Assembly (NCBI RefSeq): GCF_000703045.1 | Contig: NZ_JNLJ01000005.1 | Span: 473,023-537,022 of the forward strand | Reading direction: 5' to 3' | Length of the DNA stretch: 64,000 bases | Origin: Persephonella sp. IF05-L8 | Lineage (GTDB): Bacteria > Aquificota > Aquificia > Aquificales > Hydrogenothermaceae | Shown: in pieces, positions 53,771-59,211 of the stretch | Layout of the letters: the number at the start of each line of letters is the position of its first letter | Numbering within the stretch: position 1 is the first letter of the stretch | The notes under the pieces: model-generated | Database searches by the model: none | Seen by the model: the letters and a program-made list of their open reading frames with translations, nothing else | Told to the model about the DNA's origin: nothing | Translations under genes and position numbers: made by a program

Positions 53771-54001
53771 AATGTTACCTCCTATCTTTTTATTTGAGTT
53801 TTGAAACATTCTACACAACCTAACTTTCAATTTTTATGATTTTTATCTTAATTTTAAAAACCGTCTAACTATTGATTTTCAAGCTTATGAGCCATATCAG
53901 TATAAATTTTAGCTTTTTATACTAAAAAAACTTGACAATATTATTATTAGAAATAAATTGTAATTATATACATAAAAAATTAAAAAAATAGGAGAGGCCA
54001 G

Positions 54002-54694
54002 ATGAATATTGTAGAACTGAGGGAATTACAGGCGATTAATACCCTTGTATTTGAGACGCTGGGACAACCAGAAAAGGAAAGGGAGTTTAAACTAAAAGCT
54101 CTCAAAAGATGGGGTTTTGACCTTTTATTTGGTAAAAAAGGGGGAGAAACCACATATTTCACAGCAGAAACAGGAAAAAGAGAAGTAGGGGACAAATACA
54201 CAGAGGAAGATGTCCACTATGAAGTGGAAGAAATCATCCATGAGCTTCCTAAAAACAAAAAGATATTTGCCCATATTGAGATGATGCACGGAAGGGCATA
54301 TCTGGTAGGGGAGTTGAGGGAAGGAGAAGAAAATATAGAAATCTTAAGAGTTCCAGCAGGTAGCATTCTCCTTGCCTATTTTAAGAAACATAAACTTCAT
54401 AATCTTATTGAGGCATTAAAAAATGTTGGAACAGCCCTGGAACTTGTTAAACAAAGAGGTCAGGAAGGAAAACCTGTTCCCTATGAGCAGCTTCCCAATG
54501 TGGCAAGGAGATTTTTAAGGGGAGCAAAAGACCTTGAAAAAGACGCAGGATTTGGAAGGGTAGCTCTCTCCTACTGGGGAGAGAACAAGGATGGGGATGC
54601 AAGATTTAGAGTGTCATGGTTATTGCCAACTATAGCCCTGTTTGACATCGACATAGCAGAAAAAGCAGACAAACTACTGGCAGCATTTAAGTAG
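54002..54694 (+). CDS. unrecognised cytoplasmic protein, 230 aa, first gene of the RAMP-prefoldin operon
   Basis: I do not recognise this family. The protein lacks cysteine, signal peptide and membrane span. The first half is mixed ([41 protein letters not shown]), the second mostly helical ([28 protein letters not shown]), ending with a strand-like [33 protein letters not shown] lies before the ATG. Fourteen bases separate it from the RAMP-like gene, so the two are probably made together. Large or small subunits of CRISPR effector complexes are not obviously matched. Confidence 0.8.
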
Positions 54695-54708: not shown

Positions 54709-55431
54709 ATGGAACTTATATGCTGGACACCTGTTGTATTCAACCGTCATGGATTTCCAAGGGATGAGGAAGGTAGACCCTTCCTCCCAAGAAATCTTTT
54801 TACAGAAGCCCTAACTTCAGCAGTTATTTTCTATTACGTAAAAAAAGATAAAGAGATAGAAAATAAAGTCAAAAAGTATCTTTTAGGCTCAGATATCAAA
54901 TTTGAGGAGGTTTCTGATAAGGTTAAAGAAATAGTCCTGAGCAAATATCCTGTTTTAGACCAGTTAGATATCCCTGAAAAAACATATCTTCCAGAAAAGG
55001 ACATACAGGAAAAGTATATAGAAGTCTTTGACCTTAAAAGGTGGGAGGATATAAAAGGCTTTAAAACAGAAGTCTTCAAAGGCATTATTCCCCTTGAGAT
55101 TAAAAGTCCACATCTTGAAAAACTCAAAGCAGCGGCACACTCCTATGCCGAAGCCCTTGCAAAAATAGAACATAGCTTTTTAAAAGACCATCCCCTTGCT
55201 TCAATTTTCTACGAACCACTGATTAACGACCTGAAAAAATGGGACATTCCACTTCGTATAGGTATGTGGACAGAGGTTTCATTTAAAGGGGATTTGCTAT
55301 TTTTCTGGAGAATTAAGGAAGTCAGGGAAAAACTATTAAAAGAATTAAAGGTAGATATAAGACCCCGTTATGTCCTTTATCTACCACAGGAAAAACAAAC
55401 AACAGGTTGGGCTGAAATAAAAATCAAATAA
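54709..55431 (+). CDS. solitary RAMP-like (Csm5-like) protein
   Basis: 240 residues. Two segments point to the RAMP (ferredoxin-like RNA-binding) superfamily. The N-terminus, WTPVVFN at 6-12 followed by EEGRPFLPRNLFTEALTSAV at 20-39, parallels the TP-x-h-G and GxPYIPGSSLKGALR segments of Csm/Cmr RAMPs. The C-terminus, LRIGMWTEVSFKGDLLFFW from 182 and TTGWAEIKI at 231-239, parallels the LRxGxGSGF and PLGWxxLE ending of Csm5. No Cas10, other Cas gene or CRISPR array is in the window. The next gene encodes prefoldin alpha. The RAMP assignment comes from motif reading and is unproven. Confidence 0.5.
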   Translation: MELICWTPVVFNRHGFPRDEEGRPFLPRNLFTEALTSAVIFYYVKKDKEIENKVKKYLLGSDIKFEEVSDKVKEIVLSKYPVLDQLDIPEKTYLPEKDIQEKYIEVFDLKRWEDIKGFKTEVFKGIIPLEIKSPHLEKLKAAAHSYAEALAKIEHSFLKDHPLASIFYEPLINDLKKWDIPLRIGMWTEVSFKGDLLFFWRIKEVREKLLKELKVDIRPRYVLYLPQEKQTTGWAEIKIK

Positions 55432-55446
55432 AAGGAGGTGATAGCC

Positions 55447-55890
55447 ATGGCAAAAAAAGAGGTAAAAAAACAACCTACAACAGAGGAACTCAGCAGAGAG
55501 CTCAGAGGATACATAGCTCAAATTGAGGCTCTCAGAGCTGAAATTGCAGTTATTGATGAAAATATAGCAACTTACAGAACTGCAATTAAAACAATAAACA
55601 ACCTGAGGGACTTAGGTAAGGGTAAAAATATTCTCATCCCAATCGGAGCAGGAGCTCAGATTGAGGCAAAAATTGAAAACCCAGACAGAATAGTAGTCAG
55701 CATAGGTTCTGGAATATCTGCAGAGCTTAATGCAGAAGAGGCTTTAACACAGATAGCCAAAGAAATAGCCTCTCTGCAAGCACTTAGAAGAACACTTGAG
55801 GAAGCGATAGCTGAGGCTTATGCAAAAACAGAAGAACTACTCCAGAAAACAAGAGAAATAGGACAGGAAGAGGGTAAATCCTCAAAATAA
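55447..55890 (+). CDS. pfdA: prefoldin alpha-subunit-like protein
   Basis: 147 residues. A heptad coiled coil (about 12-55), a beta-hairpin core with GKNILIPIGAGAQIEAKI and IVVSIGSGISAELN (58-95) and a second coiled coil (97-138) are the exact layout of archaeal prefoldin alpha. Prefoldin is a hexamer (two alpha, four beta) that holds unfolded proteins between coiled-coil arms; it is universal in archaea and eukaryotes and rare in bacteria. The ATG at 55447 is chosen for AAGGAGGTGA six bases upstream, overlapping the RAMP gene's end region. A truncated beta-like gene follows after 12 bases. Confidence 0.85.
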   Translation: MAKKEVKKQPTTEELSRELRGYIAQIEALRAEIAVIDENIATYRTAIKTINNLRDLGKGKNILIPIGAGAQIEAKIENPDRIVVSIGSGISAELNAEEALTQIAKEIASLQALRRTLEEAIAEAYAKTEELLQKTREIGQEEGKSSK

Positions 55891-55902
55891 GAGAGGATAA
55901 TC

Positions 55903-56079
55903 ATGGAAGAAAAAGAACTATTAGAAAAACAGCTTAAGAAAAGTTTAGAACTACTTCAGCAACTGCCAGAAGATAGGAGGTTTTTTATCAACACCGGCGT
56001 TTTAATGGTGGAAGTCAGTAAAAAAGAAGCAGAGGAATACCTAAAAAAAGAGTTAGAAGGCCTGAGAGGAAACACATAA
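55903..56079 (+). CDS. minimal prefoldin beta-subunit-like protein, 58 aa
   Basis: ATG at 55903 with GAGAGG upstream. The segment LLQQLPEDRRFFINTG at 17-32 followed by VLMVEVSKKEAEEYLKKEL matches the beta-subunit core of archaeal prefoldin (leucine, proline, acidic pair, aromatic strand, V-G-x-L-h-V, K-E-x-x-x-x-L). Only about 16 residues of helix precede and 15 follow the core, so the long coiled-coil arms are missing. It could cap the alpha subunits or form the hexamer's base. The gene ends just before a strong terminator. Confidence 0.7.
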   Translation: MEEKELLEKQLKKSLELLQQLPEDRRFFINTGVLMVEVSKKEAEEYLKKELEGLRGNT

Positions 56080-56082
56080 AAC

Positions 56083-56112
56083 AAAAGGGCTGCGTGCCCT
56101 TTTATTTTTTTT
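56083..56112 (+). terminator. intrinsic terminator closing the RAMP-prefoldin operon
   Basis: AAAAGGGC (56083-56090) pairs with GCCCTTTT (56096-56103) around TGCGT, followed by a T-rich run. Confidence 0.9.
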
Positions 56113-56135: not shown

Positions 56136-57044
56136 ATGAGAAAACTATTAGGTGCTGTTTTATCAGCGGCAGTTATAGTTTCTCCTGTTTTTGCAAAAGA
56201 AGAAAACAAGAAAACAAATATACAGCAAAAACAGGAAACAGCAAGTTCTCTTATTGAAAGCTCTGGAAAAAGAAGCACACAAAAAGTAAGAGAGCAGGAA
56301 CTTCAAAAAATTATAAAAGAAGCAGCAAGCATTTATGCAGAAGGAAACAGAATTTTATTTTTGCTTACCCACGACAAGATAGAGGAAGCCAAAAAAGCTC
56401 TGAAAGCCCTTAAAGAAAGAGTAGATAAGTTAGAAAAACAGTATCAGGGTAAAATGGTCAGACTGCCTATAGACGTTATTGTTAATGAAGTGGTAGGAAT
56501 AACAGATATAGAACAGGCCAAAAAACTTGCAGAAGAAGTTAAAAAGGCAGTTAAAAACAATGATTTTGTAAAAGCAAGAATTTTACTGAATGCATTAAGG
56601 TCAGAAATAGTTATAGAAACTGTATATCTGCCTATTGGACTTTATAAACAGGCTATAGACCTTGCATATAAATTCCTTGAAGAAGGCAAGGTCAAAAATG
56701 CTATTTCTCAACTTCAAGTTGCTATGAATACTATAGAAATTGATACAACCATAATCCCAGAGCCAATTGCTATAGCATCACTTCTTGTTGAAGATGCCTC
56801 TAAACGCTTTAAAGATAATCCAGAGCAGGCTCTAAAACTTCTTGAGGAAGCTAAAAAACAGATTAAACTGGCTAAAGTCCTTGGTTATGTAAGAAATGAT
56901 AAGGATATAGAACCTCTCATAAAACAGATAGAAAAACTGGAAAAAGAGGTTAAAGCAAAAACAGGAACAAAAGAGAAGTTTAAATCTCTCTTTGAAAGCA
57001 TAGAGAAGTTCAAAGAAAGTTCTACACAAACAAGCACCAAATAA
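56136..57044 (+). CDS. YfdX family exported protein
   Basis: 302 residues. Signal peptide (about 1-20, ending VFA). The mature part is helical with two similar halves: the LPIDVIVNEVVGITDIEQAKKLAEEVKKAV segment and the YLPIGLYKQAIDLAYKFLEEGKVKNAI segment are the diagnostic LPI/LPL-plus-helix pattern of YfdX. E. coli YfdX is a periplasmic protein with reported chaperone-like behaviour under acid and other stress. AAGGAGGTGA lies before the ATG. It is a single-gene unit with its own terminator, directly after the prefoldin operon. Confidence 0.85.
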   Translation: MRKLLGAVLSAAVIVSPVFAKEENKKTNIQQKQETASSLIESSGKRSTQKVREQELQKIIKEAASIYAEGNRILFLLTHDKIEEAKKALKALKERVDKLEKQYQGKMVRLPIDVIVNEVVGITDIEQAKKLAEEVKKAVKNNDFVKARILLNALRSEIVIETVYLPIGLYKQAIDLAYKFLEEGKVKNAISQLQVAMNTIEIDTTIIPEPIAIASLLVEDASKRFKDNPEQALKLLEEAKKQIKLAKVLGYVRNDKDIEPLIKQIEKLEKEVKAKTGTKEKFKSLFESIEKFKESSTQTSTK

Positions 57045-58150: not shown

Positions 58151-58600
58151 ATGGCAGTAGTTGGGGCAGCCAAACTGGAAGCACTTATGAGAAAAGCGGC
58201 AAGCCTTGATATTGACAAAAACAAGGCAAAGGAAATCACCGATATTGTTGAAAAAAAACTTTATGACTTGCTTTTAATTGGTGAAAGAAATGCAAGTTAT
58301 AATGCCAGAGAAGTTATCTGGGAAGCAGATGTGCCTCTTACAAAAGGGTTCTTAGAGTCAATGCAAAAATTTAGAAAGCTTGAGGAAGAAATAGCTGTTG
58401 AGGATGTTTTAAATTTCCTTGCCACAATGCCACCTTTAAAATATCCACTGGAAGCAGAACTGGAAAAAAGACTTCCAGAAATAGTAGGAACTCTTATATA
58501 CATCCTTGCTCAGCTTATTAAAGAAATAGCTCCAGAAAGCAGAAAACCATCTTCAGAAGATATAGAAAAAGCAGGAAAAATATTAGATTTAACTATGTAA
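58151..58600 (+). CDS. DUF1931 histone-fold protein (aq_328 type)
   Basis: 149 residues. The sequence KLEALMRKAASLDIDKNKAKEITDIVEKKLYDLLL opens a first histone-fold-like half, and LTKGFLESMQKFRKLEEEIAVEDVLNFLATMP a second; this is the pattern of DUF1931, known from the Aquifex aeolicus protein aq_328, whose structure shows two histone folds in one chain. It is short of surface lysines compared with archaeal histones, so DNA binding is not certain. Its tight coupling to two membrane-protein genes is unexpected for a nucleoid protein. A hairpin follows the stop. Confidence 0.85.
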   Translation: MAVVGAAKLEALMRKAASLDIDKNKAKEITDIVEKKLYDLLLIGERNASYNAREVIWEADVPLTKGFLESMQKFRKLEEEIAVEDVLNFLATMPPLKYPLEAELEKRLPEIVGTLIYILAQLIKEIAPESRKPSSEDIEKAGKILDLTM

Positions 58601-58628: not shown

Positions 58629-58674
58629 TATATAAAATATAATACAGAAGATTATCAGATTGGGAGGAGTAATA

Positions 58675-59211
58675 TTGTTTAAGATATTGGAAACCATTAT
58701 TGAGAGGATTTTATGGGAAAGTAGGTTTATGATTTTTCTTGCTGTGGTATCCAGCGTTCTTGCTGCTTTTGTTTTAGTTATGATAGGAACGTATGATATA
58801 TTCATAGTCATTAAAGATGCAACTCATATGTTCTCTTCCAAAGAGTATTTCAAAGAATTTCATAAAGAGGCAATTAAAAATATAGTTTCTGCAGTTGATG
58901 TTTATCTAATAGCTACAGTTCTACTTATATTTGGCTTAGGTTTATATGAGCTTTTTATATCCAAAATAGACCCTATGGAAAAAGATACTAAATCATCCAA
59001 AATCCTTGTAGTTCATACCTTAGACCAGTTAAAAGAAAAACTTGCAAAAGTAATCCTTATGGTTTTAATTGTTACATTTTTCAAATATGCCATTGAGTTT
59101 AAATATGAAGATATTAAAAATCTTCTATTCCTCAGTGTAGGTGTCTTCCTGATAGCCCTATCTATCTACTTTATGCATAAAGGACACAGCGAGGAACACA
59201 ACGAGCATTAA
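58675..59211 (+). CDS. YqhA/UPF0114 family membrane protein
   Basis: 178 residues with about four spans. IIERILWESRFMIFLAVVSSVLAAF at the start, then ISAVDVYLIATVLLIFGLGLYELFISKIDP near 85-115, which is the UPF0114 signature, and a His-rich end (HKGHSEEHNEH). Function unknown; recent family annotation is as small inner-membrane proteins. The start is TTG at 58675, since GGAGGAG lies six bases before it. A terminator follows directly. Confidence 0.87.
   Translation: MFKILETIIERILWESRFMIFLAVVSSVLAAFVLVMIGTYDIFIVIKDATHMFSSKEYFKEFHKEAIKNIVSAVDVYLIATVLLIFGLGLYELFISKIDPMEKDTKSSKILVVHTLDQLKEKLAKVILMVLIVTFFKYAIEFKYEDIKNLLFLSVGVFLIALSIYFMHKGHSEEHNEH

Follow-up and report, generated by a model that had tools for sequence, protein, structure and literature searches.

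A short one-hairpin prefoldin of the beta class, co-inherited with a gamma-prefoldin orthologue in Aquificota, as a candidate filament cap or assembly partner

The bacterium Persephonella sp. IF05-L8 carries a real and functional gene for a 58-residue protein of the prefoldin beta class, here named mini-beta, that directly follows the gene for an orthologue of gPFD, the filament-forming gamma-prefoldin of M. jannaschii. Within this bacterial phylum, the Aquificota, gamma-prefoldin is co-inherited with a dedicated one-hairpin beta and with two further genes, encoding a UPF0128 protein and a Csm5-like protein (orf240). We propose that mini-beta is an end cap or length regulator of gamma-prefoldin filaments, a role to which we give about an even chance. 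All coordinates (Table 1) refer to the window, i.e., the whole 64,000-nucleotide stretch that was analysed (contig NZ_JNLJ01000005.1, positions 473,023 to 537,022); the window's own family is termed f1, f3 and f5 are other Aquificota families, and g18 is a genus of the Aquificaceae (f2).

Table 1. Features of the gamma-prefoldin operon and of the mini-beta product
Feature	Coordinates	Strand	Details
Promoter-like site TTGACA-16-TAAATT, upstream of operon	53932..53959	+	such sites no commoner than in shuffled sequence
UPF0128 / TIGR00703 protein	54002..54694	+	same operon as mini-beta
orf240, stand-alone Csm5-like RAMP protein	54709..55431	+	Foldseek, profiles
Strong ribosome-binding site AGGAGGTGAT of gamma-prefoldin	55433..55442	+	-17.3 kcal/mol
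Gamma-prefoldin orthologue, 147 aa, two beta-hairpins, full arms (the "alpha" of the first-pass annotation)	55447..55890	+	
Weak ribosome-binding site GAGAGGA of mini-beta	55891..55897	+	-8.4 kcal/mol with anti-SD
Mini-beta, 58-aa beta-class prefoldin with short helices	55903..56079	+	ATG 55903, stop 56079
N-terminal helix of mini-beta, residues ~1-20	55903..55962	+	AF2 H148-172
Single beta-hairpin of mini-beta, residues 27-30 and 35-38, expected docking element	55981..56016	+	AF2
C-terminal helix of mini-beta, residues 40-55	56020..56067	+	AF2
Intrinsic terminator, 8-bp stem then T run	56083..56103	+	begins 3 bases past the mini-beta stop

Several lines of evidence show that mini-beta is under selection. 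Its reading frame (product MEEKELLEKQLKKSLELLQQLPEDRRFFINTGVLMVEVSKKEAEEYLKKELEGLRGNT) has exactly the coordinates given in the first-pass annotation, and because an in-frame stop sits four codons upstream of the ATG, the protein cannot be longer and has no hidden N-terminus. In the relatives search, gamma and mini-beta homologues occupied exactly the same 25 of 61 genomes, and f5, which belongs to the same class, has mini-beta homologues as well. Pairwise dN/dS values, taken only from pairs with unsaturated dS, were 0.05-0.19, and five residues (L21, R25, G32, E37 and E42) are invariant among 24 sequences of the family, with R25, G32 and E37 lying in or beside the hairpin. The beta-like proteins are short in f5 (49-55 aa) and f1 (50-71 aa) and longer in f3 (86-92 aa) and g18 (93-99 aa). 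Judged by the identity of the gene beside mini-beta, the organism resembles Persephonella, its nearest named relative being a Persephonella MAG at 100%.

Membership of mini-beta in the broad prefoldin beta class (PF01920) was confirmed by homology above chance. Pfam Prefoldin_2 matched it at E=3.5e-5 (24.2 bits, missing the curated cutoff of 27.6 by 3.4 bits), and the gathering score of this model was exceeded by a match in 12 of the 61 genomes; TIGR02338 (gimC_beta) matched at 2.3e-4 and 21.1 bits, short of its equivalog cutoff of 73. A phmmer search of the PDB reached P. horikoshii beta at 4e-4, and a profile of 24 family members retrieved P. horikoshii beta (1.8e-6), Thermococcus beta2 (7e-5) and human PFD2 (5e-4), all of its PDB matches below 0.01 being prefoldin beta or PFD2 chains. 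Mini-beta is nevertheless not a canonical GimC beta, either by equivalog score or by possession of long coiled-coil arms. The first reading of the sequence, a beta core without coiled-coil arms, was right that the protein keeps the core and is much shortened, but the arms are short rather than absent. They have roughly one third to one half of the usual length, with 24 residues ahead of the core Arg and 16 beyond the core Glu (f1 medians, 24 and 20), compared with 52 and 47 in P. horikoshii beta (2zdi), where both positions were placed from the phmmer alignment.

The gamma and mini-beta genes share one frame with a single TAA between them, and by reading this TAA as Gly we obtained a read-through chain for AF2 (alignment of 48 rows), whose model (pLDDT 84, pTM 0.55, no inter-domain confidence) settles neither docking nor its absence. 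The mini-beta part was predicted as one hairpin between two helices of ~20 and 16 residues (H148-172, E179-182, E187-190, H192-207), and the gamma part as two hairpins (strands E61-66, E70-75, E81-87 and E90-95) between helices 12-56 and 96-141. The case of mini-beta shows the extent to which arms can be lost from a prefoldin subunit that stays under selection.

The partner had been taken for a full-length alpha, and a full-length prefoldin of class I (alpha-like) does adjoin mini-beta, but on the comparisons that follow it is an orthologue of gamma-prefoldin and not a canonical alpha. For the read-through chain, Foldseek ranked the M. jannaschii filamentous prefoldin (6vy1) first, with 52% identity; canonical alphas reached 22-26%. 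These alignments set mainly the gamma part against single chains and are therefore silent on docking. Likewise, phmmer with the window gamma scored gPFD at 1e-32 and canonical alpha at 1.5e-10, and the gamma family profile scored them at 2.3e-51 and 2.6e-14. In a maximum-likelihood tree, in which the canonical rows sit on long branches so that only the gamma/canonical split and the gPFD nesting were used, the bacterial gammas grouped with M. jannaschii gPFD (100/99) to the exclusion of canonical alpha and PFD5, and gPFD was nested inside the bacterial clade, beside f3 bacteria (99/99; L023, L024, L027). An f3 gamma and gPFD share 83% identity over the beta-sheet region, and the gene next to that f3 gamma is a beta. 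The nesting beside f3 Aquificota suggests transfer between vent bacteria and methanogens. M. jannaschii gPFD self-assembles into filaments and is induced 26-fold by lethal heat shock (PMC11117396), and by homology we would expect the bacterial gamma-prefoldin to form filaments as well.

In the window, the operon runs UPF0128 - orf240 - gamma - mini-beta and is closed by a terminator just after mini-beta. The same gene order occurs in f1 and f5 loci, but gamma and beta stand alone in f3, with orf240 elsewhere, and the order in g18 is gamma - UPF0128 - orf240 - beta, with a gap after gamma present or absent. In the stretch read of a Thermodesulfobacteriota MAG, gamma and beta lie together and UPF0128 and orf240 are not beside them. 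The beta-like genes of g18 (L131-L134, L153, L187) encode ~98 aa, including a 60-residue N-terminal extension, and overlap the Csm5-like gene. The terminator was found in only 8 of 28 loci and was rejected as a conserved feature. As in the window, the ribosome-binding site of beta is weaker than that of gamma in 33 of 35 related loci (means of -9.3 and -15.2 kcal/mol), which, the loci being related, are not 33 independent cases, and translational coupling may offset the difference, as the gamma and beta genes overlap in f5. In most f1 loci the operon is followed by a gene for a YfdX-like protein with a signal-peptide-like N-terminus (56136-57044 in the window); in f3 (L186) such a gene adjoins orf240, and the protein may therefore belong to the same stress programme. 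Farther downstream, in an otherwise bacterial region, are genes for a DUF1931 protein (58151-58600), from what we take to be a histone-fold family, and a UPF0114 membrane protein (58660-59211).

Models of orf240 (pLDDT 94.5, pTM 0.90) have a predicted RAMP fold like that of Csm5: The top Foldseek matches in the PDB were nearly all Csm5 (E 3e-7), the PADLOC Csm5 models matched one member of the orf240 family (3e-6), Pfam RAMPs matched two (best 0.0013), and a sequence profile of orf240 reached Csm5 in the PDB at 0.12. The protein has no Pfam family of its own and is encoded outside any type III CRISPR effector operon, next to UPF0128, gamma-prefoldin and mini-beta, and the stretches read show no cas genes beside it. 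One genome (G024, locus L018, 799-996) retains only a 66-aa fragment of orf240, perhaps through real loss or an assembly error, with UPF0128, gamma and beta intact. UPF0128 was detected in one of 14 control genomes, that of M. jannaschii, the gPFD organism, and had no match in the PDB; with no profile match to orf240 either, its kinship with RAMP proteins was rejected.

The four genes are inherited together. Gamma-prefoldin is present in 47 of 136 Aquificota genomes, every one of which also carries a beta-like gene, and the other 89 have neither. Totals for the 136 genomes were 47 for gamma, 46 for mini-beta, 48 for orf240 and 47 for UPF0128, where the mini-beta count required a profile match and a plausible small ORF and chance matches in large frames were set aside (a second match in G011, to a 302-aa low-complexity frame, and matches to 513-520-aa frames in g14 genomes). 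Among the 47 gamma genomes, mini-beta, orf240 and UPF0128 numbered 46, 46 and 45, and among the other 89 they numbered 0, 2 and 2 (Fisher p near 1e-30, kinship ignored). In G113, the sole gamma genome without a mini-beta profile match, gamma is followed directly by a divergent beta-like ORF of 99 aa. Those complete genomes of the window's family or genus that lack one module gene lack all four (G009, G014, G016 and others). MAG assignments beyond Aquificota (WOR-3, Thermodesulfobacteriota, Thermaceae) are possibly mis-binned and were not relied on; in the Thermaceae MAG (L173), a ~110-aa beta-like protein with a different C-terminal extension follows gamma. Searches for gPFD in viral contigs and plasmids found nothing, and the viral structure library gave no significant match.

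A Prefoldin_2 search of the 100%-complete genome revealed no full-length beta elsewhere, in keeping with the earlier expectation that the short gene would be conserved and would have no longer counterpart. The sole other weak match, a 291-aa frame that presumably encodes a YicC-like protein, was rejected as a second beta. The genome has one Cpn60, which by sequence is GroEL and has a GroES gene beside it; a group II chaperonin (thermosome) is absent, so the usual hand-over from prefoldin to a group II chaperonin is unavailable.

How mini-beta might act follows from the hairpins that each protein is predicted to offer. Mini-beta would work with the gamma-prefoldin encoded just upstream, which would polymerise through its two docking hairpins, as M. 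jannaschii gPFD does. With one hairpin in the AF2 model, mini-beta has the single docking surface of an end cap, and this hairpin, with its arm stubs, would take up a free hairpin site on gamma while providing neither another site for docking nor more substrate-binding tentacles. Since gamma would be bivalent and mini-beta monovalent, the monovalent part should stop growth, few copies giving capped filaments and many copies small closed oligomers: When scarcer than gamma, mini-beta would set filament length or keep gamma as short soluble oligomers, and in excess it would yield a gamma2-beta4 particle with two long arms. The weaker beta ribosome site fits few copies and a minority component, and is mildly at odds with a 2:1 excess of beta over gamma. 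One point against capping is that M. jannaschii gPFD reportedly binds neither canonical alpha nor beta (PMC11117396). In f3 and g18 (86-99 aa) the beta arms are longer, so the role does not depend on short ones.

Two mini-beta-centred alternatives have to be weighed against capping, which is favoured over both by the monovalent form of mini-beta together with its weak ribosome site. The first, a fixed hexamer of two gammas and four mini-betas, would resemble a jellyfish that has two long arms beside four stubs and would serve as a holdase, possibly with GroEL; we regard it as doubtful, though it would use the same docking chemistry as canonical prefoldin and would suit both the adjacency of gamma and beta in nearly all genomes and the lack of any other beta. 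The partner, however, falls in a filament-forming subclass, the beta ribosome site is the weaker one even though the hexamer calls for twice as many betas as gammas, and without a group II chaperonin the classical client pathway of prefoldin is missing. The first-pass annotation had predicted a similar particle, two of whose arms would be long and as many as four missing, but the arms of mini-beta have roughly one third to one half of their usual length, and the alpha2beta4 stoichiometry of that particle was an assumption. The second alternative, that mini-beta does no capping and instead serves the Csm5-like/UPF0128 part, for example as a link between gamma (its filament or its hairpin) and an RNA-binding protein of the RAMP type, draws on the co-inheritance of all four genes, on the Csm5-like fold of orf240, and on g18, where beta directly follows and overlaps the Csm5-like gene with gamma upstream, so that the real partner of beta could be another module member. 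We nonetheless judge it unlikely: f3 and the Thermodesulfobacteriota MAG stretch have gamma and beta without the other two genes beside them, and the conserved part of mini-beta is the hairpin core, which matches prefoldin docking elements. That mini-beta is a decaying relic of a full-length beta, left behind after gamma became self-sufficient, would accord with lengths varying from 49 to 99 aa and with scores below family cutoffs, but is exceedingly improbable given the low dN/dS, the residues invariant across families and the retention of beta in every gamma-bearing genome.

A wider and decidedly speculative reading, which we think rather improbable, would join UPF0128, the Csm5-like RAMP protein, gamma and mini-beta in one conserved assembly of vent bacteria that also reached Methanocaldococcus by transfer: a chaperone filament with ends set by mini-beta that carries or assembles a RAMP-type RNA-binding complex. 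If true, the module would be an unrecognised ribonucleoprotein or stress machine and not a prefoldin co-chaperone. Should mini-beta act as the proposed cap, it would answer how natural gPFD filaments are limited and provide a natural cap for materials scientists; as a cap or as an assembly partner, it could explain cellular control of gPFD-type filaments, and the module partners would make gPFD function testable. Recent reviews and papers treat prefoldin as archaeal and eukaryotic (PMC10893143, PMC6121465). The literature searched, which mostly excluded subscription papers, yielded nothing for "bacterial prefoldin", bacterial gPFD, "filamentous prefoldin" or a natural gPFD partner.

Among known systems, canonical GimC beta (M. 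thermautotrophicus 1fxk, P. horikoshii 2zdi, Thermococcus beta2 3aei) has the same order of helix, single hairpin and helix and shares the core sequence LPxxR..Y..G.lmVE..KeEA with mini-beta, which is nearest in its residues to beta2 and human PFD2 (Arg and VE motif in common). Mini-beta differs from canonical beta in that its core is flanked by about half as many residues on the N-terminal side and one third as many on the C-terminal side, and in having a gamma-type partner in bacteria with GroEL only. The window gamma is the orthologue of M. jannaschii gPFD (6vy1), and UPF0128 occurs in both organisms; whereas the literature searched gives gPFD no natural small partner, Aquificota gammas always have one. 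gPFD has been described as unique to M. jannaschii, with its cellular role and partners unclear (PMC11117396), yet here it nests in a bacterial clade. Csm5, a RAMP protein of type III-A CRISPR systems, resembles orf240 in fold (Foldseek) and in a glycine-containing PFLPG..kEAi segment, but has roughly 320-400 aa, compared with ~240 for orf240, which is stand-alone and encoded in a prefoldin operon and not a cas operon. The closest precedent for capping is TERM, a gPFD with one inactivated hairpin that caps filaments, their length being set by the ratio of the two (PMC4895442): Like TERM, mini-beta has one functional docking hairpin and is predicted to end filament growth and to set length by ratio, but TERM is a man-made gPFD mutant with full arms, whereas mini-beta, whose capping is a prediction, does not derive from gamma: It occurs naturally, belongs to the beta class and has short arms.
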